A stretch of 64,000 nucleotides of DNA from Streptomyces xiamenensis (lineage in GTDB: Bacteria; Actinomycetota; Actinomycetes; Streptomycetales; Streptomycetaceae). The notes under the pieces were generated by a model. It was not told where the DNA came from. It worked only from the letters and a program-made list of their open reading frames with translations, and did no database searches. Of this stretch, positions 11,642 to 48,650 are shown one piece after another; the stretch's first letter is position 1, and each line of letters starts with the position of its first letter. A program made the position numbers and the translations under genes. Where the stretch lies: contig NZ_CP009922.3 in assembly GCF_000993785.3 (NCBI RefSeq), positions 5,518,001 through 5,582,000 on the forward strand, given 5' to 3'.

Positions 11642-14218
<2,577 letters not shown>

Positions 14219-27622: not shown

Positions 27623-28971
27623 GCGGCCCACCCGCCCTGGTCCTCGGCGGCTCACTGGCGGGACTGCTCACCGCCACCGTGCTGCGCCGCCACCACACCA
27701 CCGTCACCGTCCTCGACCAGGACCGGCTGCCCACCGGAGCAGCCCACCGCGCCGGGACCCCGCAGGCCCACCACGGTCATCTGCTGCTGCCCGCCGGCAG
27801 CCGGTACATCGAGGCCCTGCTCCCCGGCACGCTCGGCCGGCTGCTGGCGGTGGGCGCCCACCGCATCGACATGTCCGCCGACGTCGTCAGCCTGGGGGAT
27901 CTGGGCTGGCAGCCCAGAACACCGACCGGACATCTCGCCCTGCTGTGCAGCCGCCCGCTGCTCGAATGGACCCTGCGCGAACGCGTCCGGGAGATGGACG
28001 GCATCACCCTCGTCACCGGCGCCCAGGTCCGGGAACTGACCGGCAGCCGCCACCGTGTCACCGGAGCCCTCGCCCGGCACCGCGACGGCACCACCCGTTG
28101 GTACGAGGCCGCACTCACCGTCGACGCCACCGGCCGCGCCTCGCGCACCCCCGCCCTGCTCACCGCGCTCGGCCTGCCCCCGGTACGGGAACGGACCGTC
28201 GACGCCGGCGTCGCCTACGCCTCGGTGCCCGTGCTGGCGCCGCCCGCCGCCCGGGACGGCTTCCCCCTCATCGGCATCCAGCCGGGTCCCTCCCGGCACC
28301 GCCCCGCCCGGGCCGGGGTGGTCTTCCCGATCGAGGACGGCCGCTGGCTGATCTCCCTGTCCGGCACCAGGGGCGCCGAGCCGCCGCTGGACCACCACGG
28401 CTTCCTCGCGTTCGCCCGCTCCCTGGAGCACCCGGTGATAGCCGACCTGCTGACCTCCGTCACACCCGTGGCCCCGATCCGCGGCTACCGGCACACCGGC
28501 AACCGGCGCCGCTACTACGAGCGCATGCGCCGCTGGCCCGAGGGCTTCCTGGTCGTCGGTGACGCTCTGCTCACCACCAACCCCACCTTCGGCTACGGCA
28601 TGACCGCCACCGCGGCCGGGGTGAGTGCCCTGGCCGACACCCCGCACGCCTCCTCCCGCGACACCCAGCGCGCCATCGCGCGCGCGGTCTCGGGCGCGTG
28701 GCACCTGGCGTCCGGCACCGACCTGCTGCACCCCGGCGCGACCGGCTCCGGATCACGCCGGGCGGCGCGTGTCCACCGGAGCCTGGCCCTGCGCCTGGAA
28801 CGGGCGGCCCACCACGACCCTCGGCTGCGCCGCGCCCTGGTGCGGGTGGGGACCCTCAGCGAGCCGCCCTCGACCCTGTTGACCCCGGCCGTCGCCCGTG
28901 CCCTGCTGCTTCCGCGGGCGCGCGGTCCGGCTACGCCCGGCTCTCCTGCTCCTGGAGGATCCGCTGATTGA
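27619..28971 (+). CDS. FAD-dependent oxidoreductase, epoxidase-like
   Basis: A 450-residue flavoprotein with LVLGGSLAGLLTATVLRRHH (FAD ADP site) and VVGDALLTTNPTFGYGMTATAAG. That last motif resembles the one seen in polyether and squalene-type epoxidases (MonCI, LasC, squalene epoxidase). It also has VDATGRASRTPALLTALG. It is the better of the two operon flavoproteins for terminal-alkene epoxidation before cyclisation. A geranylgeranyl-reductase role is the main alternative. It starts at GTG 27619, overlapping the previous stop, and ends 41 bases inside the convergent siderophore-interacting protein gene, which marks the end of the operon. Confidence 0.83.
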   Translation: MSGPPALVLGGSLAGLLTATVLRRHHTTVTVLDQDRLPTGAAHRAGTPQAHHGHLLLPAGSRYIEALLPGTLGRLLAVGAHRIDMSADVVSLGDLGWQPRTPTGHLALLCSRPLLEWTLRERVREMDGITLVTGAQVRELTGSRHRVTGALARHRDGTTRWYEAALTVDATGRASRTPALLTALGLPPVRERTVDAGVAYASVPVLAPPAARDGFPLIGIQPGPSRHRPARAGVVFPIEDGRWLISLSGTRGAEPPLDHHGFLAFARSLEHPVIADLLTSVTPVAPIRGYRHTGNRRRYYERMRRWPEGFLVVGDALLTTNPTFGYGMTATAAGVSALADTPHASSRDTQRAIARAVSGAWHLASGTDLLHPGATGSGSRRAARVHRSLALRLERAAHHDPRLRRALVRVGTLSEPPSTLLTPAVARALLLPRARGPATPGSPAPGGSAD

Positions 28972-29758
28972 ACTCCGCCTTGGCCGCCTGCCAGCCGTCC
29001 TCGTCGTTCCCCCGGCGCCAGTACCCGGAGATGGACAACTGCTCGGGCGCCATGGCGCGCTCGTGCCGCAGATGGCGCCGCAGTTCCTTGACCCAGTTCG
29101 CCTCGCCGTGCACGAAGGCGTGCCCGCGCCCCGGCGGCAGGGTGAGAGAGGTGACGGCGTCCACGAGCGCCGGACCGAAGCGTCCCTCGCGCCGGTCGAC
29201 CCAGACCACCTCGACGTCCCCGGCCGGCGGCTCCAGCTTCAGTTCCTCACCCGGTCCGTCGATCTCGATGAGGACCCGCGCGACCGCTCCCGGCGGGAGC
29301 CGCTCGACGGAGGCGGCGATGGCGGGCAGCGCGCTCTCGTCCCCGACGAGCAGATGCCAGTCGGCGGTGGGGTCGGGCGCGTAGGCGCCGCCGGGGCCCA
29401 GAAGGGCGATCCGGTCCCCGGGGCGCGCGGCGGCGGCCCAGGGCCCGGCCAGGCCGGTGTCGCCGTGGTGGACGAAGTCGATGGTCAGTTCGAGGGCCTG
29501 TGGGTCCCATGCGCGCACCGTGTACGTCCGCATGCTGGGCCACTGCTCGCGCGGCAGCGTGCGGCGGATCTCCGCCACGTCGAACGGCTCGGGGTAGTCC
29601 ACTCCGGGCTGGGCGAAGACGAGCTTCACGTAGCTGTCGCTGTACGGCCCCACCGCGAACTCCTGAAGGCCCTCACCCCCGAGGACAACTCTGATCACAT
29701 GCGCACTGAGCCGCTCGGTGCGCAGCACCTGACCACGATGCGTGACGATGTCGCTCAT
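28931..29758 (-). CDS. siderophore-interacting protein (ferric-siderophore reductase)
   Basis: A 275-residue cytoplasmic FAD/NAD(P)H flavoprotein of the ViuB/YqjH family that reduces imported ferric siderophore to release Fe(II). The FAD-binding RTYTVR lies at residues 77-82, followed by IDFVHHGDTGLAGPWA and LLVGDESALPAIAASVE. The C-terminal SGYWRRGNDEDGW is a family hallmark. GGAAGG precedes the ATG, and an iron box starts only 16 bases upstream, so it belongs to the same regulon as the two uptake operons. It is convergent with the flavoprotein gene of the meroterpenoid operon (41-base overlap). Confidence 0.95.
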   Translation of the reverse strand: MSDIVTHRGQVLRTERLSAHVIRVVLGGEGLQEFAVGPYSDSYVKLVFAQPGVDYPEPFDVAEIRRTLPREQWPSMRTYTVRAWDPQALELTIDFVHHGDTGLAGPWAAAARPGDRIALLGPGGAYAPDPTADWHLLVGDESALPAIAASVERLPPGAVARVLIEIDGPGEELKLEPPAGDVEVVWVDRREGRFGPALVDAVTSLTLPPGRGHAFVHGEANWVKELRRHLRHERAMAPEQLSISGYWRRGNDEDGWQAAKAEFNQRILQEQESRA

Positions 29759-31000: not shown

Positions 31001-32107
31001 CTAGTGCCCGCTGTGGTCGGCGGCCGATCCGTGCGAGCCGCTGTGACCGGCCGTGTCCGCGCCGCCCTCGTCGGCGGTGCCCGCCGCCGTGTGGTGGTGC
31101 TCGTAGTCGGGGATCGTGCCGTCCGGTCGTTTCACCAGCAGCAGTCCGGCCATGCCCATGTCCGAGTGGCTCTGCACGTGGCAGTGGTACATCCACGCGC
31201 CCGGCCCGACCCCCTCGCCGGCGATGATCTGGAAGCCGAAGGAGTCGCCCGGCCCGGTGATCTTGTTGTCCACGATCCTGCTGGTGTCCTCGGGGCCCTC
31301 CAGCAGCCCGGTGCGGTTCTCGGCCCAGCGGTGACCGTGGATGTGGAAGGTGTGGTAGAGCTCGCCGTGGGTGATGGAGATGATCTCCACCCGGTCACCC
31401 ATCGTGACCTCGTAGTCGGCCCCGGCCTTCAGATTGTTCGTCAGCATGTCGTTGAAGACGATGGTGATCGTCTTGTCCGGCAGCACATCGCCCGCGCGCC
31501 GCACCACCAGCGGACCGTACAGGCCGTTGCGCACCCCGGCCGTGCCGTGGTCGGTGCCCACGGTGTGATCGTGATACTGCCAGTAGCCCGCGCTGCCCGA
31601 GCGCCAGGTGCCGTCCGCCCGGCGGCCCGGGGCGTGCGAGCGCCAGGTGTACGTCCGCTTTCCGCCGGGCGGTACGTGGGAGCGGGTCATCCGGGTGCCG
31701 TCGCTGGATATCTCGTAGTCGACGCCGTGCACATGCAGGCTGGCGTCCACGTCCATGAGGTTCTCGACCTCGATGTGCAGCGTGTCGCCCTCGACCATCT
31801 CGATCAGCGGGCCCGGGACCGAGGCCTTGCCCGGCTGGAGGCCGTAGCCCATGCGGCCGTCGGAGAGCCGCTCCAGGTAGAGCTTCATGGTCCGCACCTG
31901 GTTGCGTGCCTGGGCGGTAGGGGCCGTCACCGTCCCGGCCGCGGCCGCGGAGTTCGCGGCCGGGGCCGCGGCTGTCAGTGAGGCGGCGCCGGCCATCGCC
32001 GCGGCACCCCAGAAGAGGGAGCGCCTGCCTGGCCCCCGGCTTGGTCCGGCGGACCCATCGGTCCGGCTTCCGTCGTCGCTTCCGTTACCGCCCGTCACCG
32101 CGTTCAT
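31001..32107 (-). CDS. two-domain small laccase (multicopper oxidase)
   Basis: A 368-residue secreted copper oxidase closely following Streptomyces coelicolor small laccase in sequence (RASL-like [41 protein letters not shown]). It oxidises phenols and other one-electron donors and reduces O2 to water as a homotrimer. Copper-binding His clusters are visible: [18 protein letters not shown] and [13 protein letters not shown] (with the T1 Cys, His and Met). The N terminus has a twin-arginine signal ([18 protein letters not shown]), so export is in folded form by Tat. The C-terminal tail is His-rich. The ATG at 32107 has GGGAG eight bases upstream. It is divergent from the sugar-dehydrogenase operon. 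Confidence 0.96.
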
Positions 32108-32208
32108 GGGCACAACTCCCTGCAACTGTTGCTACTTCGAGCACGAGCCGCCGGACAACATAGCTCTCGAACGGGACTTTATCCAGATCATGACAAAGTT
32201 TCGACGAG

Positions 32209-32219
32209 TTTGGTCCAAA
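32209..32219. promoter_or_regulatory. TTTGG-T-CCAAA palindrome between laccase and sugar-dehydrogenase operon
   Basis: An 11-base perfect inverted repeat (TTTGG, T, CCAAA) in the 185-base divergent region, about 75 bases before the dehydrogenase ATG. It has the look of a LacI/GntR-type operator, but does not match the DasR consensus I remember. It could control both directions. Confidence 0.35.
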
Positions 32220-32292
32220 GCCCTTGGCGGTGTGGGAACAAGCGTCTACCTTGCTCGCTGACCCGGAACCACCAGTGAGGAGTGGGTGGCAC

Positions 32293-34836
32293 ATGCGGCG
32301 AACACCGCATCACAGTCCCAGGAACTCGGAGCAGGTGCACAGATCCCCCGCGGACGGTCCGGAACGCCGGCCCCGCCGCACGCGGTCCCTACGGATATGG
32401 GCGTCGGCCCTGCTGTCGGGCGTGATGGCGACCGGCGCGCTGTACGCGGTACCCGCGGCCAGCGCCCAGCCCTCCGCCGAGTCCGTCGCACAGGCACTCA
32501 ACCTGCCGCAGCCACCGGGCGGCGACGACGTCCGTGTGCTGATCTTCCACGCGTCCGCCGGTACGGAGTCCCCGACCGTGGACACCGGCATCGCCGCGCT
32601 CGAATCCATCGGGCGCAGCGGGCCCGCCAACCAGCGATTCTCCGTCGAAGCCACGGCCGACGCCTCGGTGTTCACCGACGGCCGCCGGCTCGGCGCCTTC
32701 AACTCCGTGGTCTTCCTCACCGGTGCGGGCGATGTCCTGGACGCCGAGCAGGAACTGGGCCTCCAGGCCTACCTCGCGGCGGGCGGCGGCTTCCTCGGCG
32801 TGCACGACGCGGCCCGTACCGAGCCGTACTCCGACTGGTACGGCGGGCTGATCGGCGCCCGCGCCACCGGGGACAGCGGCTCCACCGCGCAGCGCGCCAC
32901 CGTCGAGGTCGGCGACCGGGTCCACCCGGCCACCGCCGGTCTGCCGCCGGAGTGGAGCCGCCTGGACCGGTGGCTCAACTGGGAGACCAATCCCTCCGGT
33001 GACGTCCACACCGTCGCCCGGGTCCGCGAACTGGACTACCGGCCGGGCGAGTCGGCCAACGGGCCCGACCATCCCATCTCCTGGTGCCAGGACTACGCCG
33101 GCGGCCGTTCCTTCTACACCGCCATGGGCGGCACCGTCGCCTCGTGGGCCGAGGCCGACTTCCGTGACCACCTGCGCGGCGCGCTCACCTGGACCAACCG
33201 GGTGGCCCGTGCCGACTGCCAGGCCACCGTCACCGCCAACTACACGGCCGAGCGGCTGACCCCGCCCAACCAGCCGGGCGAGCACGACCAGATCGGTGAG
33301 CCGCACGGCCTGGTCCCCGCCCCCGACGGCCGGATCTTCTACATCGGACGCGGCGGCGGCCCGGCCGGCTCCTCCGTCATCACCGACTGGAACGACCCGG
33401 ACATCGGCAAGGGCGAGGGCGAGATCCACGTCTACGACCCGCGCACCGGCCAGGCGTCCCTGGTGGGTTCGCTGACCGTCTTCGGCAACAAGGGCGGCGG
33501 CGGCGAACTGGTCAAGACCGAGGAAGGGCTGCTCGGCATCGAGCTCGACCCCCGGTTCGCCACCAACGGCTGGATCTACCTGCACTGGACACCGCACTCG
33601 GAGATCGACCGCGAGCAGCGGACCGCCGAGCGCCGTGTCTCGCGCTTCACCGTCAACCGCTCCACCGGCAGGCTGGACCTGTCCTCGGAGAAGGTGCTGC
33701 TGTCGTGGCCGGTGCAGATCCACAGCTGCTGCCACGCGGGCGGCGGGATGGCGTGGGACTCGCACGAGAACCTCTACATCGCCACCGGTGACACCAACTC
33801 CTCCGGATTCACTAACGGTTACTCGGGCAACAACCCCGAGCCGGTGTTCGCGGGCACCTCCTTCGCGGACGCCCGCCGCACCTCCGGCAACACCAACAAC
33901 CTCAACGGCAAGATCCTGCGCATCCACCCCGAACAGGACGGCACCTACACCCTCCCCGAGGGCAACCTGTTCACCGGCAGGGAGACCGCGGAGGGCGGCG
34001 GCAAGACCAGGGGCGAGATCTACGCGATGGGCGTGCGCAACCCCTCGCGGATCTTCGTCGACCGGCAGACCGACGTGCTCTACGCCGGCTGGGTGGGCCC
34101 CGACGCCTCACAGCCCAGCACCACCTGGGGCCCGGCCAAGTACGAGTCCTTCACCGCCATCACCGCACCCGGCAACTTCGGCTGGCCGTTCTGCATGGGC
34201 AACAACCAGCCCTACCGGGACCGCAACCTGCCCGACCCCTCGCAGCCGCTGGGCTGGTACGACTGCGACGCGCCGCGCAACGAGTCCCCGCACAACGACG
34301 GCCTCGTGAAGCTGCCCCCGGTCACCCCGGTGTCGATCTGGTACGCCCCCAACGGCGGCGGCCCCGACTATCCGCGCAACGCCGACGGCATCCCGTCCTA
34401 CGCCATCGACGACGAGTTCTACCGGCTGCCCTGGGCCAAGGGCGGCGGCCAGGCCGCGATGACAGGACCCGTCTACCGGTACGACGAGGACCGTGCCAGC
34501 GACGTCAAGTGGCCCCGCTACTGGGACGGCAAGTGGTTCATCGGTGACTTCTACGACGGTGTCCAGCCCCGGCACGCGGTCCTGATCGACCCGGACACCA
34601 TCGGCGGGGGCACCCCGCCCAGCCATGTGGAGCCGCTCAAGGAGATCATCCCGGTCGGTCAGGGCGGCATCCGCAACCTGATGGACTGGAAGTTCGCCCC
34701 CGACGGCTCGCTGTACGTCCTGGACTACGGCCGGGGCTTCTTCAACTCCGACAGCGAATCCGCCCTGTGGCGGGTGACCTACTCCGGCGGCGCGCCCACC
34801 CCGGCCGCCTCCGACCTGGTCAGGAAGGGCGACTGA
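32293..34836 (+). CDS. secreted ThuA-domain plus PQQ-type sugar dehydrogenase-like protein
   Basis: An 847-residue exported protein with a Sec signal (LRIWASALLSGVMATGALYAVPAASA). Residues about 80-305 are a ThuA-like domain (VRVLIFHASAGTES, GGGFLGVHDAARTE, ISWCQDYAGGRSFYTAMGG). Residues about 330-840 are a GDH/sorbosone-dehydrogenase beta-propeller: EPHGLVPAPDGRIFYIGRGGG, GLLGIELDPRFATNGWIYLHW, SCCHAGGGMAWDSHENLYIATGD, NLNGKILRIHP and AMGVRNPSRIFVD. The His after the vicinal Cys pair is where soluble glucose dehydrogenase has its catalytic base. An extracellular sugar oxidation or ketosugar-processing role is inferred. Its TGA overlaps the next ATG by one base. Confidence 0.88.
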   Translation: MRRTPHHSPRNSEQVHRSPADGPERRPRRTRSLRIWASALLSGVMATGALYAVPAASAQPSAESVAQALNLPQPPGGDDVRVLIFHASAGTESPTVDTGIAALESIGRSGPANQRFSVEATADASVFTDGRRLGAFNSVVFLTGAGDVLDAEQELGLQAYLAAGGGFLGVHDAARTEPYSDWYGGLIGARATGDSGSTAQRATVEVGDRVHPATAGLPPEWSRLDRWLNWETNPSGDVHTVARVRELDYRPGESANGPDHPISWCQDYAGGRSFYTAMGGTVASWAEADFRDHLRGALTWTNRVARADCQATVTANYTAERLTPPNQPGEHDQIGEPHGLVPAPDGRIFYIGRGGGPAGSSVITDWNDPDIGKGEGEIHVYDPRTGQASLVGSLTVFGNKGGGGELVKTEEGLLGIELDPRFATNGWIYLHWTPHSEIDREQRTAERRVSRFTVNRSTGRLDLSSEKVLLSWPVQIHSCCHAGGGMAWDSHENLYIATGDTNSSGFTNGYSGNNPEPVFAGTSFADARRTSGNTNNLNGKILRIHPEQDGTYTLPEGNLFTGRETAEGGGKTRGEIYAMGVRNPSRIFVDRQTDVLYAGWVGPDASQPSTTWGPAKYESFTAITAPGNFGWPFCMGNNQPYRDRNLPDPSQPLGWYDCDAPRNESPHNDGLVKLPPVTPVSIWYAPNGGGPDYPRNADGIPSYAIDDEFYRLPWAKGGGQAAMTGPVYRYDEDRASDVKWPRYWDGKWFIGDFYDGVQPRHAVLIDPDTIGGGTPPSHVEPLKEIIPVGQGGIRNLMDWKFAPDGSLYVLDYGRGFFNSDSESALWRVTYSGGAPTPAASDLVRKGD

Positions 34837-37052
34837 TGAGACGACGCACACGCCTTGACAGCCGCACCCTGTGGACCGCGCTGCTCACCTCGATGGCCCT
34901 GCTGCTGGGGCTCACCTCGGCCGCCGCCCTCGGCGGACCGGGGGAGGAGCGGGCGGTGGCGGCGGAGCAGACGCTGCGCTGGACGGCGGACGGCGGGATG
35001 GACGCCTTCACCTCGGCGCCGCAGACCGCGGTGGCCGGGCCGGCGACCATCGTCTTCGAGAACAGCGTGGCCACCGGCAACGACATCGCGATGCCGCACA
35101 CGCTCACCTTCGACACCAGCAACCCCGAGTTCAACAACGACGTCGACCTCAACATCCTGGCCAACCCGACCGACAACAACGGCGGTCTGCACACCGCCGA
35201 GGTGGTCCTCACCCCGGGCGTCTACCGCTACTACTGCGCGATCCCGGGCCACGGCGCCATGCAGGGCACCCTGGTGGTGACCGAGGACGACGGCGAGGAC
35301 GTCACCGCACCCGAGGTCACCGCCTCGGTGGACGGCGTGCGCAACGACGACGGCGCGTTCTTCGGCTCGGCCACCGTGACCCTGGAGGCCACCGACGCCG
35401 GTTCCGGCGTGGCGAGCGTGGAGTTCGCCGAGGGCGCCGACGGGGAGTGGCAGCCGTACGCCGACCCGGTCGTGGTGGACCGGGTCGGTGACCACGTGCT
35501 GCGCTACCGCGCCACCGACGTGGCCGGCAACGTGTCGGAGCCGGGCACGGTGGAGTTCACCGTGGTCGAGCCGCCGACCGACGACACCGAGCCGCCGGAG
35601 ACCTCGGCGACGGTGAGCGGTGACCAGAACGAGGACGGCGACTACCTCGGCATGGCCACCGTCACGGTGACCGCCTCCGACGCCGGCTCCGGCGTCAACT
35701 CCATCGAGTACGCCCGGGGCGCCGACGGCGCGTGGCAGGAGTACACCGGGCCGGTGATGGTCCACGACCTCGGCAGCCACGTGCTGCGCTACCGCGCCAC
35801 CGACCGGGCCGGCAACGTCTCGCAGGAGCAGAGTGTCGAGTTCACCGTCGTGGAGGTCGTGGAGGAGGACGTGACCGCGCCCGAGGTCTCGGCCTCGGTG
35901 TCCGGCAACATCAACTCCTCGGGCTCGTACATCGGGTACGCCCAGGTGACGATCGAGGCCACCGACGAGGAGTCGGGCGTCGAACTGGTGGAGTACTCGC
36001 TGGACGGCGGTCCCTACCTGGAGTACGGGCGTCCGGTGATCGTGGACGGCGTCGGACGGCACACCGTCTCCTACCGGGCCACCGATGCCGCGGGCAACAC
36101 CTCGCAGGCCGGGGAGGTCGTCTTCACCGTCGCCCGCGGCGGTGGCGTCCCCGCGCCCAACTGCGCCGAGTTCGACGAGCGCCGCACGGTGTTCGTCGGC
36201 GAGGTGAACACCGGGGTGCCCAACCGGATCACCGAGACCCGCTGCCGCATCAACGAGCGGATCGAGGACGAGAAGGACTGGTCCTCGCACGCGCTGTTCC
36301 TCAAGCACGTGGACACGGTCGTCGGTCAGCTGCTGGAGGAGGGTGTCATCGACGAGCGCGAGTCCGGGCTGATCAAGCAGGCCGCGCGTGACTCGGGCAT
36401 CGGTACCCCGGGCAACACCGAGGGCTACCGCAGCCTGTTCGACGGCAGCCAGGAGAGCTTCGAGCGCTGGCAGCAGGTCGGCGGCGGCGCCTTCGGGCTC
36501 TCCGAGGACAACGCCATGACCAGCAGCAGCGACGTGCCGGGCATGGGCATGCTGTGGTTCCCGGAGCGGCAGTACGAGAACTTCTCGCTGAAGCTCCAGT
36601 GGCGCGACGACGCCCCCGACGGACTGCTCACCAACGGCGGGGTGTTCGTCCGGTTCCCGGACGTGCACGGCCATCCGGAGGAGAGCCGGCCGGAGTGGGT
36701 GGCGATCAACTACGGTCACGAGATCCAGATCTATGACCGGCCCACCGGCGATCTGTACAAGACCGGTTCGGTCTACGGCTTCGACCGGGTCGGTCTCGGC
36801 GGTGCCGGGGTGACCCCGAAGGGCACCTGGAACGACTACGAGATCCGGGTCATCGGGCAGTCCTACGAGATCTACCGCAACGGCGTTCTCATCAACGAGT
36901 TCGAGAACGTCCGCGGTCTGGCCTTCGAGCCGCCGCGTGGCGGGGACCCGGGCAGCAACGGACGGCGCAACGCCTCCGGCTATGTCGGCCTCCAGGTCCA
37001 CGGCGCCGACGACGTGGTCTCCTACCGGGACATCCGCATCAAGGAGCTGTGA
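34836..37052 (+). CDS. secreted cupredoxin, Ig-like repeats and DUF1080 (3-keto-glycoside hydrolase-like) protein
   Basis: A 738-residue exported protein. After a signal peptide (to about 43), residues about 48-150 form a cupredoxin domain with a type 1 copper site: His in AMPHTLTF and Cys, His, Met in YYCAIPGHGAMQG. Three tandem Ig-like repeats of about 97 residues follow (each TAPE-x-SASV ... ATDxAGNxS ... VEFTV, about 155-445), then a linker with NCAEFDERRTVF. Residues about 545-738 are DUF1080/LamG-like: GYRSLFDGSQESFERWQQVGG, GVFVRFPD, EIQIYDRPTGDLYKTGSVYG and YVGLQVHG. DUF1080 members include 3-keto-disaccharide hydrolases. It is coupled to the dehydrogenase (TGATG) and ends at a UUCG-loop terminator. 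Confidence 0.9.
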   Translation: MRRRTRLDSRTLWTALLTSMALLLGLTSAAALGGPGEERAVAAEQTLRWTADGGMDAFTSAPQTAVAGPATIVFENSVATGNDIAMPHTLTFDTSNPEFNNDVDLNILANPTDNNGGLHTAEVVLTPGVYRYYCAIPGHGAMQGTLVVTEDDGEDVTAPEVTASVDGVRNDDGAFFGSATVTLEATDAGSGVASVEFAEGADGEWQPYADPVVVDRVGDHVLRYRATDVAGNVSEPGTVEFTVVEPPTDDTEPPETSATVSGDQNEDGDYLGMATVTVTASDAGSGVNSIEYARGADGAWQEYTGPVMVHDLGSHVLRYRATDRAGNVSQEQSVEFTVVEVVEEDVTAPEVSASVSGNINSSGSYIGYAQVTIEATDEESGVELVEYSLDGGPYLEYGRPVIVDGVGRHTVSYRATDAAGNTSQAGEVVFTVARGGGVPAPNCAEFDERRTVFVGEVNTGVPNRITETRCRINERIEDEKDWSSHALFLKHVDTVVGQLLEEGVIDERESGLIKQAARDSGIGTPGNTEGYRSLFDGSQESFERWQQVGGGAFGLSEDNAMTSSSDVPGMGMLWFPERQYENFSLKLQWRDDAPDGLLTNGGVFVRFPDVHGHPEESRPEWVAINYGHEIQIYDRPTGDLYKTGSVYGFDRVGLGGAGVTPKGTWNDYEIRVIGQSYEIYRNGVLINEFENVRGLAFEPPRGGDPGSNGRRNASGYVGLQVHGADDVVSYRDIRIKEL

Positions 37053-37152: not shown

Positions 37153-37177
37153 GTTTGTGGAGCGGAGTGTCTTTGTC

Positions 37178-38233
37178 ATGCGTTCATACCGGGTCTGGGC
37201 GGCGGTCGCGGCAGCGGCTGTCGCGCTGAGTCTCAGCGCCTGCGGCGCCTCCGACGACGGAGCGGACGACGCCGCCGACAAGGGCGGGAACACGGAGAAC
37301 GGCGCGTCCGGCGCGTTCCCGATCACCATCGAACACGCCCTGGGCACCACGACGATCCCTCAGAAGCCCGAGCGCGTCGCCACCGTCGCCTGGGCCAACC
37401 ACGAGGTGCCGCTGGCCCTGGGCGTCGTCCCGGTGGGCATGGCCGCCGCCAACTTCGGCGACGACGACGGCGACGGCGTCCTGCCGTGGGTCACCGAGAA
37501 GCTCGACGAGCTCGGTGCCGAGACCCCGGTGCTCTTCGACGAGAACGACGGCATCGACTTCGAGTCCGTCGCCGACACCAACCCCGACGTCATCCTCGCC
37601 TCCTACTCGGGGCTGACGCAGCGGGACTACGACACCCTCAGCGACATCGCCCCGGTCATCGCCTACCCGGAGGCTCCCTGGGCCACGTCCTGGCGCGACA
37701 TCATCAAGCTCAACAGCGAGGCCATCGGCCTGGGCGCCGAGGGCGAGGCGCTGATCGCCGACCTGGAGCGGGAGATCAGCGACACCGTCGCCGGCTACCC
37801 GCAGCTGACCGGCAAGTCGGTGATGTTCATGACCCACATCGACCCGACCGACGTGAGCCAGATCGGCTTCTACACCGCGCACGACACCCGCGCCCTCTTC
37901 TTCGAGGACCTCGGCCTGCGGACCCCCGGCAGCATCGCCGAACTCTCCGCCGGAACCGACCAGTTCGCGCTGACCCAGAGCGCCGAGCAGATCCAGGTCT
38001 TCGACGACGTGGACATCATCACCGGCTACGGCGACGAGGAGGGCGAGCTGTTCGGGATCGTCCAGCAGGACCCGCTGCTCTCGAAGATCCCCGCCGTCGA
38101 GCGCGGTTCCGTGGCCTTCCTGCCCGGCAGCACGCCGCTGGCCACCGCCGCCAACCCCACCCCGCTGTCCATCTCGTGGGTGCTGGACGACTACGCCGCC
38201 CTGCTCGCCGAGGCCGCGGACAAGGTGGAATGA
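37178..38233 (+). CDS. iron-siderophore ABC transporter substrate-binding lipoprotein (second system)
   Basis: A 351-residue lipoprotein with a short basic start, the lipobox LSAC (Cys about 24) and an Asp-rich linker. The mature part is the FecB-type binding fold: FPITIEHALGTTTIPQKPERVATVAWANHEVPLALG, ILASYSGLTQRDYDTLSDIAPVIAYPEAPW and RLSISWVLDDY-like LSISWVLDDYAAL at the end. It captures a ferric siderophore. The ATG at 37178 has GGAG upstream and is the only start that gives a proper signal. An iron box precedes it. The stop overlaps the permease ATG (ATGA). It is clearly related to the binding protein at 18792-19847 but differs enough to suggest another siderophore. Confidence 0.95.
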   Translation: MRSYRVWAAVAAAAVALSLSACGASDDGADDAADKGGNTENGASGAFPITIEHALGTTTIPQKPERVATVAWANHEVPLALGVVPVGMAAANFGDDDGDGVLPWVTEKLDELGAETPVLFDENDGIDFESVADTNPDVILASYSGLTQRDYDTLSDIAPVIAYPEAPWATSWRDIIKLNSEAIGLGAEGEALIADLEREISDTVAGYPQLTGKSVMFMTHIDPTDVSQIGFYTAHDTRALFFEDLGLRTPGSIAELSAGTDQFALTQSAEQIQVFDDVDIITGYGDEEGELFGIVQQDPLLSKIPAVERGSVAFLPGSTPLATAANPTPLSISWVLDDYAALLAEAADKVE

Positions 38234-39273
38234 CGGCCGTCACCACCCGGAACACGCCGGACGCCGACCTCGCTCGGCGTCCGGCCCATGTCCGGGGTCT
38301 GTGGATCGCCGCCGCCCTGGCCCTCCTGGTCCTCGCCATGGCCGCCTCGGTGGCCCTGGGCGCCCGGGACGTGGGCTGGTCCGACATCGTCGCGGGCCTC
38401 GGCGGCGCCGAGAGCACCCTCGGCGAGGCCGCCGTCAAGAAGCGGGTGCCGCGCACCCTGCTGGCCATGACGGTCGGCGCGGCCCTCGCCCTGGCCGGCG
38501 CCGTCATGCAGGGCGTGACCCGCAACCCGCTGGCCGACCCGGGCATCCTCGGCGTCAACATGGGTGCCTCGCTCGCCATCGTCACCGGCGTCGCCTTCTT
38601 CGGCCTGACCTCTCCCACCAGCTACATCTGGATCGCCATCGCGGGCGCCGCCGCCACCGCGCTGTTCGTCTACGCCATCGGTTCGATGGGGCGGGGCGGG
38701 CCCACCCCGCTCAAGCTCGCGCTGTCCGGGGCGGCCGTCTCCGCCGCGCTCGCCTCCCTGGTCACCGCCGTCATGCTGCCGCGCAACGACATCGCCGGCA
38801 CCTTCCGGATGTGGCAGATCGGCGGCGTCGGCGGAGCCTCCTTCGACAAGCTCGGCCAGGTGGCACCGTTCCTCGCCGTGGGGTTCGCCCTGTGTCTGCT
38901 GTCCGCCCGCCGCCTGAACTCCCTGGCGCTGGGCGACGAACTGGCCGCCGGGCTGGGCGAGAACGTCGCCGCGACCCGGGCTCTCTCCGCTCTGGGCGCC
39001 ATCCTGCTGTGCGGCGCGGCCACGGCCGTCGCCGGCCCGATCGGATTCGTGGGCCTGGTCGTGCCCCATCTGTGCCGGCTGCTGGTCGGTGTCGACCACC
39101 GCTGGCTGCTGCCGCTCGCCGCGCTGCTGGGCGCCGCCCTGCTCACCGCCGCCGACGTGGTCGGCCGCATCGTGAACCGGCCCTCGGAGATCGACGTCGG
39201 CATTGTGACGGCCCTGATCGGCGCGCCCTTCTTCATCTACATCGTCCGCCGACAGAAAGTACGAGCCCTGTGA
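38230..39273 (+). CDS. FecCD-family siderophore permease (second system, first subunit)
   Basis: A 347-residue polytopic permease. Family landmarks are LALAGAVMQGVTRNPLADPGILGVNMGAS, RRLNSLALGDELAAGLG and AGPIGFVGLVVPHLCRLLVG. It is coupled to the binding protein upstream (ATGA) and to the second permease downstream (GTGA). The two permeases should form a heterodimeric channel for the same ferric siderophore. Confidence 0.95.
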   Translation: MTAVTTRNTPDADLARRPAHVRGLWIAAALALLVLAMAASVALGARDVGWSDIVAGLGGAESTLGEAAVKKRVPRTLLAMTVGAALALAGAVMQGVTRNPLADPGILGVNMGASLAIVTGVAFFGLTSPTSYIWIAIAGAAATALFVYAIGSMGRGGPTPLKLALSGAAVSAALASLVTAVMLPRNDIAGTFRMWQIGGVGGASFDKLGQVAPFLAVGFALCLLSARRLNSLALGDELAAGLGENVAATRALSALGAILLCGAATAVAGPIGFVGLVVPHLCRLLVGVDHRWLLPLAALLGAALLTAADVVGRIVNRPSEIDVGIVTALIGAPFFIYIVRRQKVRAL

Positions 39274-40295
39274 CCCTTCAGGCCATGGCCGAGGGCCGGA
39301 TCCGCCGCGCGAACCGGCGGCGCGCCACCATCGCCGTCCTCGTGGCTCTCGTCGTCAGCGCGTTCGCGATCAGCCTGATGTTCGGCAAGACCTCCTACCC
39401 GCCGGACGCGGTGTGGCGGGTGATCCTGGGCGAGCAGGTCCCGGGTGCGTCCTTCACCGTCGGCCGGCTGCGGCTGCCCCGTGCGGTGCTCGCCGTCCTC
39501 GTCGGGCTGTGCTTCGGTCTGGGCGGTGTCACCTTCCAGACGATGCTGCGCAACCCGCTGGCCAGCCCCGACATCATCGGCATCAGCACCGGGGCGAGCG
39601 CGGCGGCCGCCTTCGCGATCGTCGTGCTCTCGCTCAACGAGGTCGGGGTCTCCGTCTTCGCGATCACCGGTGGCCTGCTGGTCGCCCTGGCGGTGTACAC
39701 CCTGTCCTTCAAGGACGGGGTGGCGGGCTCGCGGCTCATCCTGATCGGCATCGGCATCGCCGCCATGCTGGAGAGCCTCACCGCCTACATCCTCAGCCGG
39801 GCGGGGGAGTGGGATCTCCAGGAGGCGATGCGCTGGCTGACCGGCAGCCTCAACGGCTCCAGCTGGACGGAGGTGGTGCCGGTCCTGATCGCGCTGGCCG
39901 TCCTGGGGCCCGTTCTGCTGGGGCAATCGCGCGGCCTGTCCACGATGCAGCTGGGCGACGACACCGCCGCGGCCCTCGGCGTGCGCGTCGAGCGCACCCG
40001 GATCATCGCCATCGTCGCGGCGGTGGGCCTGATCGCCTTCGCCACCGCCGCCGCCGGACCGATCGCCTTCGTGGCGTTCCTGTCCGGCCCGATCGCCGCC
40101 CGTCTGGTGGGGCCCGGCCACTCCCTGCTGGTGCCCGCCGCCCTCATCGGCGCGCTGCTGGTGCTGGTCGCCGACTTCTGCGGCCAGTTCGCGTTCGGCA
40201 CCCGCTACCCGGTCGGTGTCGTCACCGGCGTGCTGGGCGCCCCGTACCTCATCTACCTCATCATCCGCACCCACCGTGCGGGCGGTTCCCTGTAG
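39270..40295 (+). CDS. FecCD-family siderophore permease (second system, second subunit)
   Basis: A 341-residue polytopic permease with LGGVTFQTMLRNPLASPDIIGISTGASAAAAF, LSTMQLGDDTAAALGVRVERTR and AGPIAFVAFLSGPIAARLVG. The start is GTG 39270, overlapping the preceding stop. It is the last gene of the operon: no ATPase gene follows. The next gene is the convergent MFS exporter. The system must borrow an ATPase encoded elsewhere, possibly the FecE-type protein at 15778-16647. Confidence 0.94.
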   Translation: MTLQAMAEGRIRRANRRRATIAVLVALVVSAFAISLMFGKTSYPPDAVWRVILGEQVPGASFTVGRLRLPRAVLAVLVGLCFGLGGVTFQTMLRNPLASPDIIGISTGASAAAAFAIVVLSLNEVGVSVFAITGGLLVALAVYTLSFKDGVAGSRLILIGIGIAAMLESLTAYILSRAGEWDLQEAMRWLTGSLNGSSWTEVVPVLIALAVLGPVLLGQSRGLSTMQLGDDTAAALGVRVERTRIIAIVAAVGLIAFATAAAGPIAFVAFLSGPIAARLVGPGHSLLVPAALIGALLVLVADFCGQFAFGTRYPVGVVTGVLGAPYLIYLIIRTHRAGGSL

Positions 40296-41731: not shown

Positions 41732-41947
41732 TCAGCTCTCGCCCATCGCGACGCGCAGGGACCGCGGCCGCATGTCGGTCCACACCGTGCCGATGTGGGC
41801 CAGGCACTCCTGACGGGTCCCGCTGATCTCCAGCGCCCGCCAGCCGGCCGGCACCGGACGCTCCGCGGCCCAGACGGAGTACTGCTCCTCGTCGTTGATG
41901 ACCACCACGAACTGCTGCTCGCCGGCGCCGTTTGCCTCTTCGGTCAT
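41732..41947 (-). CDS. MbtH-like protein
   Basis: A 71-residue NRPS accessory protein that binds and stabilises adenylation domains. Conserved residues are all present: NDEEQYSVWAAERPVPAGW, ECLAHIGTVWTDMRPRSLR. The ATG at 41947 overlaps the stop of the stand-alone adenylation gene by four bases (ATGA), showing that it is part of the NRPS operon. The three-tryptophan pattern that contacts A domains can be seen. Confidence 0.96.
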   Translation of the reverse strand: MTEEANGAGEQQFVVVINDEEQYSVWAAERPVPAGWRALEISGTRQECLAHIGTVWTDMRPRSLRVAMGES

Positions 41948-43497
41948 GGGAGGGTCCTCTCGTGTCCTGGGGAAGGGTGGGACGGGGTCCGTGCCGGGGG
42001 TTGCGGCCGGTGCAGGCGCTCGCGCACCAGCTCCCGCACGGCGCGCCTGCTGGTCTTGCCCGCCGCCGTGTCCGGCAGCGCCGCGAAGTCCAGCACCTGA
42101 CGCGGTCTCATGTACGCGGGAAGCAGCCGGTGCAGTCCGGCCCGCACCTCCCGCCCCGCCTGGGGCCACGGCGGCGATCCGGCGGCCGGGACGCAGGCGA
42201 GGTACAGCTCGGGGCGGCCCTCGGGGCCCTCGCAGACCACCGCGACCGCCTGCGCCAGTTCCGGCAGCCGCTGGGCGACCGCCTCGATCTCGCCCAGTTC
42301 GATCCGGTGGCCCCGGATCTTGACCTGGTCGTCGGCGCGGCCGTGGAAGTAGTGCTGCCCGTCCGCCCCGGCCCGGACCAGATCGCCCGTGCGGTACATC
42401 CGTGAGCCGTCCGCCGCGGTGACGAACGACCTGGCGGTCAGGCCGGGTTCGCCGGTGTAGCCGCGCGCCACCCCGGCCCCCGACAGCCACAGCTCACCGA
42501 CCTCCCCGGCCGCCACCGGGTGCCCCGCCTCGTCCAGCACCCGGGCGCCCAGGCCCGTCAGCGGCCGGCCGATCGGCAGCGGATCGCGGAACGGCGGCTC
42601 CAGCGGAGTGCACAGCCCGACCACCGTGATCTCGGTGGGGCCGTACGCGTTCCACAGCGCCCCCGTCACCGGCAGCAACTCCTCGGCCAGCGCGGCCGGC
42701 AGCGCCTCGCCGCCGGAGATGAGCGTGCCGAAGACCCGTTCACCGCCGAGGAAGGGCAGCAGCAACCGCAGCTGGCTCGGGGTGGCCCAGGCCGCCGACA
42801 GCCGTGCCCCGCGCAGGAAGCGGGCGAAGAACTCCGGGTTGCGGGCGGCCCGTTCCGGTGCGACCACCGCGGTGCCGCCGCACACCAGCGGGATCAGCAG
42901 CTCGGGCACCGACATGTCGAACACCGTATTGCTGTGCGCCAGCATCCGGCTCCCGGGGCCGAACTCCAGGGCGCGCACGAAGTGTTCCAGCATGTTCAGC
43001 AGCGCCGGATGCTCCACCTCCACGCCCTTGGGCACCCCCGTGGACCCGGAGGTGAACAGCACGTACGCCGCCGGTCCGCCCGGATCCGGGGCGATCGCCG
43101 CCTTCTCGCGGCCCACCTCGGCCGTCGCCGTCGTGCTCACCCCGTCGGTGGCCGTGCCGCGCACCGCGACCGTGCACACCGCCCGCCGGATCTGGTAGCG
43201 GCGCCGCTCGCCCGGAGCCGCCGGGTCCAGCGGCACGGCGGTGGCACCCAGCATCCAGCAGGCCAGCAACGGCACCAGATAAGGGGCCCCGTACCCGGCC
43301 TCCACGGCCACCCGGGTGCCCCGGCCGGCGCCGGCGGCGGCCAGCCGGGTGGCCTCACCGCGCGCGGCGGCCACCAGGCCGGCGTAGCTGAGCGTGCCCT
43401 CCGGGCCCTCCACCGCCGGGGCGCCGGGCCGCAGCCCGGCCTGCGCCAGCACCGCCGCGAGCACCGTGCCGGCCTCGTGCTCAGTCGGTGAGGACAT
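41944..43497 (-). CDS. stand-alone NRPS adenylation protein
   Basis: A 517-residue single adenylation domain with no carrier domain. Core motifs are VLFTSGSTGVPKGVEVEH (A3), NAYGPTEITV (A5), GELWLSGAGVARGY (A6), YRTGDL (A7), GRADDQVKIRGHRIELGEIE (A8) and the A10 lysine in TAAGKTSRR. The hand-aligned pocket is DMPWIGAVVK, which I cannot assign to a residue with confidence. It must load a carrier protein in trans, for example the first T domain of the T-C-A-T protein encoded directly upstream, which lacks an A domain of its own. The two genes overlap by 17 bases, and it is coupled to the MbtH-like gene downstream. Confidence 0.93.
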   Translation of the reverse strand: MSSPTEHEAGTVLAAVLAQAGLRPGAPAVEGPEGTLSYAGLVAAARGEATRLAAAGAGRGTRVAVEAGYGAPYLVPLLACWMLGATAVPLDPAAPGERRRYQIRRAVCTVAVRGTATDGVSTTATAEVGREKAAIAPDPGGPAAYVLFTSGSTGVPKGVEVEHPALLNMLEHFVRALEFGPGSRMLAHSNTVFDMSVPELLIPLVCGGTAVVAPERAARNPEFFARFLRGARLSAAWATPSQLRLLLPFLGGERVFGTLISGGEALPAALAEELLPVTGALWNAYGPTEITVVGLCTPLEPPFRDPLPIGRPLTGLGARVLDEAGHPVAAGEVGELWLSGAGVARGYTGEPGLTARSFVTAADGSRMYRTGDLVRAGADGQHYFHGRADDQVKIRGHRIELGEIEAVAQRLPELAQAVAVVCEGPEGRPELYLACVPAAGSPPWPQAGREVRAGLHRLLPAYMRPRQVLDFAALPDTAAGKTSRRAVRELVRERLHRPQPPARTPSHPSPGHERTLP

Positions 43498-46400: not shown

Positions 46401-46866
46401 TCCACCGCGAGACCGGGCGGGCGGAAGCCGCGCCGCAGCGCCGGGTGCGCCGCCGCCAACTCGTCGAGCGCCGTCCGCAACCGGGGGACGTCCAGCCGTC
46501 CGGGGAAGCGGTACACCGCGCCCACGTGGTACCGCGCGGTGCCGGGCGACACCTGCTCGGCGGCCCACAGCCGCTCCTCCGGCGCCGTGAGCGGACGCTC
46601 CCCGCCCCCTGGCCCGCCCCGCCCTCCTTGGCCAGCACCGCCACCAGCCGCCCGAACTCCGGGTAGTCGTACAGCAGATCGAGATCGATGTCGGTGCCGG
46701 TGACGGCGCGCAGGCTCATCGCCGCCTCCACCGCCACGATCGAATCGGCCCCGGCGAGGAAGAAGTGGTCCTCGTCCCCGGCCGGATCCGCGCCCACCGC
46801 GCGCCGCCACACCTCGGCGACCGCCGCCCGCAGCCGCTCCGGGTCACCGCCCGGCGCCGCGGTCAC
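43481..46866 (-). CDS. NRPS, domains T-C-A-T, interrupted by one frameshift
   Basis: Corrected length about 1130 residues. The GTG at 46866 overlaps the carbamoyltransferase stop and opens a carrier domain (HFFLAGADSIVAVEAAMSL, about 46630-46830). The frame then runs out of register: the condensation domain (RPLTAPEERLWAAEQ, HHLVCDG active site) is read in the next frame. One extra base in the C-run at 46605-46609 restores a single protein. The A domain (about 43760-45300) has VMFTSGSTGEPKAVVV and NGYGPTENTT; its hand-read pocket is DAFWLGGTFK, close to the classic Val code DAFWIGGTFK. The last T domain (LALGGHSIMALRL) ends near 43500. There is no TE. As an initiating or side module it would join the residue on the first T (loaded in trans) to Val. 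Confidence 0.85.
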
Positions 46867-48650
46867 CGCCCGTCGCCTTCCGCCCGGACCCGCGTCACCA
46901 GCACGTCCCCGATGGCCAGCGCGTCCAGCGAGGATCTGGCGAAGGTCTCCACCGCCTCCCGGGGCGTGCGCACGATCGGCTGACCGCGCAGATTGAAGGA
47001 GGTGTTGAGCACCACCGGCGTGCCGTGGTCGTCACCGAACCGCCGGATCAGTTCCCAGAACACCGGCGCCTGCGCCCGCTGCACCACCTGCACCCGGGCC
47101 GAGCCGTCCACGTGCGTGATCGACGGCAGCGCCTCCCGGTACTTCTCCCGCACCTGCGCCACACACAGCATGTGCCGGTAGAGATTCTCCTGCCCGGGGA
47201 CGATCTCGAAGTACTCCCCGGCCTCCTCGGCCGTCACCGCCGGCGCGAACGGGCGGAACTCCTCGCGCTGTTTGACCACCGCGTTCAGGTGCGCCCGCAT
47301 CCCCGGCACCCGGGGGTCGGCCAGAATGCTGCGGTGCCCCAGGGCCCGCGGCCCGAACTCCATCCGCCCCTGGAACCAGGCCACCACCGCCCCGCCGCCC
47401 AGCAGTTCGGAGACCCGGCCCAGCAGTTCGGGCCGGGCGAGCCCGGTCACCTCGAAGCCCGGGCCCAGCCCCGCCAGCGCCGCCGCGACCTGCGCGGTGT
47501 CGAACTCCTCGCCCCAGTACGGCATCGTCATGGCGGACGGCGCGGCCGGACGGCGCTGCCGCAGCTCCCACAGCGCGGCCCCCAGGGCGCTTCCGTCGTC
47601 CCCCGACGCCGGCTGCACGAACACCTCGTCCACCAGACCGCTGCGGGCGATCACCCCGTTCGCGGTGCAGTTGAGCGCCACCCCGCCCGCCATGCACAGC
47701 CGCCGCGAGCCACCGCCCGGCAGCTCGCGCGCGGAGCGGAGCACGTGCAGCAGGCTCTCCTCCAGGGTGTGCTGCACCGTGGCGGCCACGTCCATGTGCC
47801 GCTGCTCCAGCGGTGCCCGCGGATGCCGGGCCGGGCCGAACACCTCCTCCAGCCGGCGGATCACCCCCCGATGCGTCTCCCGCTCCAGCGGCGTGCGGTC
47901 GTGCGCCAACAGCGGGGAACGCAGCCCGCCGTCCGCGAGCCGCCGCATCAGCTCGCCGTCGGCCTGCGGGAACCGGCCCCGGTCGCCGTACGGGGCGAGG
48001 CCCATCACCTTGTACTCGTCCATCCCCGGCAGAAAACCGAGGTACTGGGTGACGACGCTGTACAGGATGCCCAGCGAGGCGCCGATCGGATAGCGCCGCA
48101 GCGTCCGCAGCTGCGCGCCTTCGCCGGCGTGCACCGAGGTCGCCTCGGTCTCGCCCATGCCGTCGGCCACCAGCACCGTCGCGGCCTCGAACCCGCTCAG
48201 CCAGTAGGCGCTGGCCGCGTGCGCCAGATGGTGCGGCACCCGCACCAGCTTGCGTTCCCAGTCGTGGCCGGGGAAGTGCTCGCGCAGCACCTCCCACTGC
48301 ACTCGCTCCGCGTACGCCTCGGCGAACCAGCGGCGGGTGTACGCGTCCCGTTCGAACGCGGCCGACGGCTCGTAGCGGAAGCCGTGCGCGACCACGTCGA
48401 CCTCATCGAGGGACACCCCGGCCATCCGCAGACAGGCCGTGACGGCGTCCACCGGGAACGCCCCGGTGCCCTTGTCGCCGTCGTGCCGCTCCTGGGCGGA
48501 GGCGGCGAGCACCCCGTCCTCGCTCACCAGCGCCGCCGCCGAGTCCAGGCCCTGCACCAGCCGCAGCTCGCGGTGGTCAAGCCCCGGCAGCAGCTCACGC
48601 TTGAGCGCCTGCGTGCGGTCCAGACCGCTGATTCCCAGTACGAGCACCAT
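46863..48650 (-). CDS. NodU/CmcH/TobZ-family carbamoyltransferase
   Basis: A 595-residue enzyme that transfers a carbamoyl group from carbamoyl phosphate, through carbamoyl-AMP, to a hydroxyl (or amine). The Kae1-like N-terminal domain shows VLGISGLDR, the metal-binding HHLAHAASAYWLSGFE and VLVADGMGETE. The later part has CMAGGVALNCTANG, FQGRMEFGPRALGHRSILADPR and the YrdC-like C-terminal FRPFAPAV and NTSFNLRGQPIV. The start overlaps the giant NRPS stop by one base (TGATG), and the stop overlaps the T-C-A-T start (GTGA). It is thus embedded in the NRPS operon and likely carbamoylates the peptide, for instance a Thr or other hydroxyl side chain, or a carrier-bound precursor. Confidence 0.93.
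   Translation of the reverse strand: MVLVLGISGLDRTQALKRELLPGLDHRELRLVQGLDSAAALVSEDGVLAASAQERHDGDKGTGAFPVDAVTACLRMAGVSLDEVDVVAHGFRYEPSAAFERDAYTRRWFAEAYAERVQWEVLREHFPGHDWERKLVRVPHHLAHAASAYWLSGFEAATVLVADGMGETEATSVHAGEGAQLRTLRRYPIGASLGILYSVVTQYLGFLPGMDEYKVMGLAPYGDRGRFPQADGELMRRLADGGLRSPLLAHDRTPLERETHRGVIRRLEEVFGPARHPRAPLEQRHMDVAATVQHTLEESLLHVLRSARELPGGGSRRLCMAGGVALNCTANGVIARSGLVDEVFVQPASGDDGSALGAALWELRQRRPAAPSAMTMPYWGEEFDTAQVAAALAGLGPGFEVTGLARPELLGRVSELLGGGAVVAWFQGRMEFGPRALGHRSILADPRVPGMRAHLNAVVKQREEFRPFAPAVTAEEAGEYFEIVPGQENLYRHMLCVAQVREKYREALPSITHVDGSARVQVVQRAQAPVFWELIRRFGDDHGTPVVLNTSFNLRGQPIVRTPREAVETFARSSLDALAIGDVLVTRVRAEGDGR

Follow-up and report, generated by a model that had tools for sequence, protein, structure and literature searches.

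A small laccase, a cupredoxin and a ThuA-GSDH protein form a conserved gene unit that may encode a secreted copper redox chain in Streptomyces

The small laccase SLAC of Streptomyces has been studied for two decades as a biocatalyst and as an O2-reducing electrode. In the open literature searched, SLAC (SCO6712) and its relatives EpoA, Ssl1 and SilA are treated as phenol oxidases that act alone, without described partner genes, and the natural role of small laccases has been described as speculative (PMC7036934). We analyzed a stretch of 64,000 nucleotides (the window), positions 5,518,001-5,582,000 of the 5.96-Mb single-contig chromosome of Streptomyces xiamenensis, whose closest named matches are Streptomyces lonarensis, S. 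otsuchiensis, S. spiramenti and S. bohaiensis. It encodes an orthologue of these laccases, with all copper ligands, divergently from two overlapping genes: one for a ThuA domain joined to a six-bladed GSDH propeller (ThuA-GSDH), the other for a cupredoxin joined through immunoglobulin (Ig)-like repeats to a DUF1080 domain. An earlier note on this DNA had described this arrangement, and it was confirmed by the coordinates and by Pfam and NCBIfam domains. Given their conserved linkage, their co-absence, the movement of the block, the swapping of domains and the existence of cupredoxin-laccase pairs without a dehydrogenase, it is nearly certain that the laccase, the cupredoxin protein and ThuA-GSDH are one functional unit. 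The most economical reading of these sequences is that the unit would form a secreted electron transfer chain, with the step from cupredoxin to laccase the best supported.

Within Streptomyces the unit is remarkably constant in composition. Among 294 genomes of the order searched, 176 had the cupredoxin-DUF1080 gene, with strong matches (E < 1e-90) in 157, all of them Streptomyces. Regions were taken from 57 genomes, one of which was truncated by a contig end; laccase, ThuA-GSDH, cupredoxin and DUF1080 occur together in all 56 informative loci, with the gene arrangement of the window in 55 and a rearrangement in one (L080). In a second, named collection of 80 loci, which partly overlaps the first in genomes, the divergent arrangement is found in 80/80, and in 69 an NTGA overlap joins the stop of the dehydrogenase gene to an ATG or GTG start. 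Two S. griseus strains are among those with the three-gene unit. The earlier note had made a conserved neighbourhood across genomes its main test, and the neighbourhood is conserved in both collections as well as in other genera. The genes flanking the unit in the window (a siderophore-interacting protein, an SLT protein and a FecB-like binding protein) were matched in none of the 80 named loci. In its usual Streptomyces position the block has a LigD gene on one side and LacI, VOC or desaturase genes on the other, and it sits elsewhere in relatives of the window and several other lineages; as these contexts differ, the block has moved as a unit. Of 39 genomes chosen to measure co-absence, all without a strong cupredoxin-DUF1080 match, 37 also had no laccase match. 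Gene order is kept for many Streptomyces genes and most copies of the block lie at the one site from LigD to LacI/desaturase, as would be seen if the genes were neighbours by descent without shared function. However, the unit is kept in unrelated contexts and in four families, with its strand order changed and its domains re-fused, and its genes are lost together. The data already contradict ordinary synteny, which we regard as extremely improbable.

Gene order inherited from a common ancestor accounts neither for domain swapping nor for the minimal cupredoxin-laccase pairs, and these two features therefore argue most strongly for function. Among 395 genomes of the class, 49 have the cupredoxin domain; they belong to 8 of 137 genera, Streptomyces included, and the identity is 51-71% in the seven other genera. 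A laccase lies in the same cluster in 19 of the 20 out-of-genus loci fetched, the twentieth being a 3.3-kb contig. In these genera ThuA, GSDH and DUF1080 are fused in one protein of ~1360 residues, the cupredoxin and Ig repeats form a separate protein, the laccase gene is often upstream on the same strand, and tandem laccases occur. The rearranged Streptomyces locus, L080, shows this same split architecture. In gene trees of GSDH and of the laccase, the Streptomyces form stands apart from the others, and L080 groups with the other genera in the GSDH tree (100/100) and weakly in the laccase tree (80/46), its placement being unresolved in the short cupredoxin tree. In two loci (L216 and L220), the cupredoxin is found beside two laccases without ThuA-GSDH or DUF1080.

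Both copper proteins appear intact. The window laccase matches S. coelicolor SLAC (3CG8, E 2e-153) over nearly its whole length and has 12/12 of the copper ligands listed for SCO6712 (PMC3918160). These twelve ligands are kept in nearly all of 47 homologues. Tandem laccase genes adjoin the cupredoxin in L219, L216, L220 and L222, and a few aligned laccase copies have substituted copper ligands (e.g. Tyr or Phe for a type-1 (T1) His), with those of L222, which are very divergent, as likely candidates. The cupredoxin ligands His, Cys, His and Met are invariant, in that order, in 44/44 homologues, bearing out the type 1 copper site that the earlier note had proposed. Auracyanin A and plastocyanin, its nearest solved relatives, share the type-1 loop Cys-x4-His-x2-Met and the upstream His; unlike them, the cupredoxin here forms the N-terminal part of a large Ig-repeat protein predicted to be secreted. 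These comparisons support a complete laccase and a cupredoxin able to bind type-1 copper.

Complete His-Cys-His-Met type-1 sites typify electron carriers, not chaperones, which counts against a role in copper handling, with the cupredoxin as an extracellular copper carrier, SLAC as a protective cuprous or metal oxidase and the sugar enzymes as passengers. The sugar enzymes, moreover, are kept in almost every locus. What favours copper handling is SCO6710, the presumed orthologue, which is listed as a glycosyl hydrolase and putative CsoR-repressed gene with a copper-responsive transcript, but that transcript was two-fold lower, not higher, in high-copper spores (PMC6414726). We consider a primary role in copper handling very unlikely. 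From the locus numbers (SCO6712 is SLAC) and the gene order of S. fungicidicus (LigD, DUF1080 protein, ThuA protein, laccase, LacI), we infer that SCO6710-6711-6712 is the S. coelicolor version of the trio and that SCO6710 is the DUF1080 gene.

In the mechanism we propose, the three genes would encode one secreted copper redox unit. With a putative redox cofactor, ThuA-GSDH would oxidise an extracellular sugar or glycoside. The cupredoxin would accept the electrons at its type-1 copper and hand them on to SLAC, where they would pass through the type-1 copper and the trinuclear cluster and reduce O2 to water. Depending on the lineage, DUF1080 is fused to the cupredoxin or to the dehydrogenase, and it would bind or process the (keto)glycoside. 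All three proteins are predicted to be secreted from their signal-like N termini, judged by eye, with a twin-Arg in that of the laccase. Electron transfer from cupredoxin to laccase is somewhat more likely than not. The cupredoxin is acidic in 44/44 homologues (net -3 to -15), and a positive patch above the T1 copper of S. coelicolor SLAC couples to negative surfaces (PMC9692349), a weak indication that the two may dock since the patch residues vary between SLACs. The preceding step, from GSDH to cupredoxin, is suggested by their co-occurrence. For the whole chain from glycoside through ThuA-GSDH, cupredoxin and SLAC to O2, the chance appears slightly short of even.

Several observations weigh against this chain. 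SLAC is found alone, without the unit, in two genomes (L103 and L104), the residues of its positive patch are only partly conserved (R170 in 26/47), and it oxidises many phenolics directly (PMC3918160). The last of these fits the main rival explanation, mediator cycling, in which the laccase would turn plant or lignin phenols into radicals or quinones and the dehydrogenase, alone or via the cupredoxin, would re-reduce them with electrons from sugar; small phenolics rather than protein-protein transfer would then connect the two enzymes. Such cycling between a sugar dehydrogenase and a laccase has been proposed for fungi, AA12 dehydrogenases fall within the GSDH fold, and the usual locus in S. 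fungicidicus is a few genes from the protocatechuate catabolism genes pcaHGB. However, the pca genes are not part of the conserved block, itself found in other contexts too, and cycling of mediators needs no dedicated cupredoxin, yet the cupredoxin is the most tightly kept partner of SLAC, including in the two dehydrogenase-free loci. Mediator cycling seems unlikely.

The other points against the secreted chain concern ThuA-GSDH, which the earlier note had called a pyrroloquinoline quinone (PQQ)-type sugar dehydrogenase with ThuA. The AlphaFold models are of moderate confidence (mean predicted local distance difference test scores 69 and 75) and are used without atomic claims. The ThuA-GSDH model has the GSDH fold (Z 28.7 to 3A9G, 26.2 to 3DAS and 23.6 to 1CQ1; 24-29 over the Asd and sGDH structures 3A9G, 2ISM, 3DAS and 1CQ1), and the fold matches also cover AA12 dehydrogenases and the non-enzymatic hedgehog-interacting protein. 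With Asd (3DAS from S. coelicolor, 2ISM and 3A9G), sGDH and AA12, ThuA-GSDH has in common the six-bladed propeller and the catalytic His, Arg and Asn; the equivalents of sGDH His144, Arg228 and Asn229 are invariant in 41/41 GSDH homologues, as is the Asp of the following GD motif that partners the catalytic His, and the metal-site position is D/E. ThuA-GSDH differs from Asd and sGDH in its ThuA fusion, in an invariant Cys-Cys pair before the catalytic His, and in its PQQ anchors. 3DAS, 2ISM, 3A9G and sGDH share a conserved R-x-R close to the C terminus and, in a loop before it, a Lys or Arg; in sGDH these residues (Lys377, Arg406 and Arg408) hold the PQQ carboxylates. In the 41 homologues R-x-R has become mostly N/S-L/W-M, with Met at the R408 position in 41/41, mostly N/S at R406 and no basic residue in the K377 region. 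A separate, normal Asd of this genome (L107) keeps both anchors, so their loss is a real difference within one genome. The genome also has no pqqC, and among 119 genomes of the order pqqC is present in 18, 7 of them with the unit, and absent in 101, without association with the unit. A PqqD match at G000:1423253 was rejected as a sign of PQQ synthesis as it adjoins an apparent lasso-peptide transglutaminase-like protein. At L102:9059-9872, a small PqqD-like protein is followed by a transglutaminase-like protein, resembling lasso-peptide B1/B2 genes and not PQQ synthesis.

With the carboxylate-anchoring residues replaced and pqqC missing, PQQ dependence of ThuA-GSDH appears doubtful, and PQQ, if used, would have to be scavenged. 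Of the earlier assignment, the GSDH fold and family, the ThuA domain and the catalytic residues stand, and "PQQ-type" is a label of fold and family only. Anchor loss is no proof of PQQ loss because AA12 enzymes hold PQQ by other residues (PMC6881789). Two ThuA/GSDH-type paralogues with PKD domains, L093 (G000:C1:75119-77140), which also has ThuA, and L094 (2730662-2731741), contain CCH.GG without R-x-R; for this subfamily, too, the annotation "PQQ-dependent" is not backed by the residues. A ThuA-like stretch at G000:C1:126036-126878 (L006), broken by three TGA and one TAG, is probably a pseudogene. Methanol-type dehydrogenases are known to have vicinal disulfides next to PQQ, and the Cys-Cys pair is possibly a redox-active element, a lead we draw from the alignment. 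A membrane-free secreted chain in which ThuA-GSDH departs from the established mode of PQQ use, perhaps with the Cys-Cys pair as a redox-active element, and feeds a dedicated cupredoxin and, through it, SLAC as the terminal O2 reductase is rather unlikely.

The replaced anchors and missing pqqC could also mean that the propeller is not a redox enzyme. A cofactor-less GSDH would then bind glycan while ThuA and DUF1080 process 3-keto-glycosides from elsewhere, and SLAC and the cupredoxin would carry out an oxidation, for instance of phenols bound to the glycan or of the glycoside. In favour of this reading, the propeller shares its fold with the non-enzymatic hedgehog-interacting protein, and DUF1080 matches 3-keto-2-hydroxyglucal hydratases. 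In contrast, the invariant catalytic His, Arg, Asn and His-paired Asp, together with the D/E metal site of the 41 homologues, would be unexpected in a protein for binding only, and we find a non-redox propeller improbable.

The place of DUF1080 in the secreted chain is puzzling and is a further point against it. By Foldseek the domain matches the 3-keto-glycoside hydratases/eliminases 8V31, 8TDA and 8RR2, including 3-keto-2-hydroxyglucal hydratases; with the whole cupredoxin-DUF1080 protein, the matches are dominated by the Ig repeats. DUF1080 is tied genetically to the use of 3-ketolactose (PMC9007349), whereas sGDH-type enzymes oxidise C1 (PMC6881810). The earlier proposal that DUF1080 processes the keto-sugar made by the dehydrogenase is not borne out in that form, given that sGDH/Asd enzymes attack C1 and the characterised DUF1080 proteins work on 3-keto sugars. 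Either this GSDH oxidises C3, or a 3-keto substrate is made elsewhere, or DUF1080 may only bind. The domain has the fold and family of BT2157, 8TDA, 8V31 and 8RR2; unlike BT2157-type proteins, it is fused to a cupredoxin or a GSDH propeller, and none of the known C3-dehydrogenase types was seen alongside.

The region between the divergent genes (Table 1) contains conserved non-coding blocks, consistent with shared control of both gene directions. An alignment places a GACAAAGTT core in 55/56 Streptomyces divergent regions. A second element, GGTCTAgCTTC, also written AAAGAGGTCTAGCTTC, is conserved in the regions of L037-L092 and, by eye, recalls half of what we take to be the DasR-type GGTCTAGACC site. 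The palindrome GACAACG(A/T)TGTC, matched at a fixed place in 47/56 loci, was rejected as a LacI operator as it lies inside the ThuA-GSDH coding sequence. No inverted repeat of the form TACC..GGTA, a loose approximation of a CsoR-like site, was found in the 56 divergent regions.

Table 1. Features of the laccase, ThuA-GSDH and cupredoxin locus (window coordinates)
Feature	Position	Strand	Remarks
Small two-domain laccase, SLAC/EpoA type	31001-32125	-	twin-arginine translocation (Tat)-like signal RRSLFWGA
Laccase start options	TTG 32125 or ATG 32107	-	
Divergent intergenic region, laccase to ThuA-GSDH gene	32108-32292		no other gene inside
Diverged copy of conserved non-coding block	32176-32203		genus consensus GTTTaTCCAcAc.CAGGACAAAGTT.G
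Secreted (predicted) ThuA + GSDH six-bladed propeller protein	32293-34836	+	motifs HSCCHAGGG, GVRNP
Secreted (predicted) cupredoxin + three OmpL47/Ig-like repeats + DUF1080	34833-37052	+	
Cupredoxin domain	34956-35282	+	type-1 Cu ligands His, Cys, His, Met; net -9, pI 4.2
DUF1080 (PF06439, 3keto-disac_hyd) domain	36420-37049	+	Pfam 1e-31

The likely starts of the two forward genes are ATG 32293 and ATG 34833, within frames open already from TTG 32224 and GTG 34767, and an ATGA overlap (34833-34836) joins the TGA stop of the first to the ATG of the second. Pfam finds Cu-oxidase_3 and Cu-oxidase_2 in frame 31004-32125(-), ThuA (3e-56) and GSDH (4e-22) in frame 32224-34833(+), and 3keto-disac_hyd/DUF1080 (1e-31) and Copper-bind (6e-4) in frame 34767-37049(+), Copper-bind scoring 20.6 bits, slightly under the gathering cut-off of 21.2. 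The three OmpL47 repeats between the cupredoxin and DUF1080 domains are from NCBIfam.

Around the trio, the genes look like a siderophore or nonribosomal peptide synthetase cluster. They include a siderophore-interacting protein (28931-29758), FecB/FecCD-like transport genes (37157-40295), an AMP-binding enzyme (41947-43497, -), a carbamoyltransferase (46866-48650, -) and an open frame of ~5100 residues (48650-63997, -) that runs to the end of the window. A terpene synthase with two Terpene_syn_C_2 stretches (11645-13963, -) is geosmin-synthase-like.

The component families of the unit are all known. In agreement with the earlier note, which knew of no description of the trio, no account of their combination turned up in the open literature searched, where SCO6710 appears only as a predicted CsoR target. 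Conserved in four families of the class, this partner set provides the first concrete candidate partners for SLAC, with the cupredoxin as its candidate natural electron donor, and makes its natural role testable. If the secreted chain is true, SLAC would act as the terminal reductase of O2, and phenol oxidation would not be its chief activity.

Chains in which a dehydrogenase or another donor is joined to a copper enzyme by a cupredoxin are known, as in methylamine dehydrogenase-amicyanin and the cupredoxin-fed Cu nitrite reductase. Like the chain proposed here, they bring together a dehydrogenase, a blue-copper carrier and a multicopper enzyme outside the cytoplasm. Compared with those chains, the terminal enzyme in Streptomyces would be a secreted, O2-reducing laccase, working without a membrane chain.

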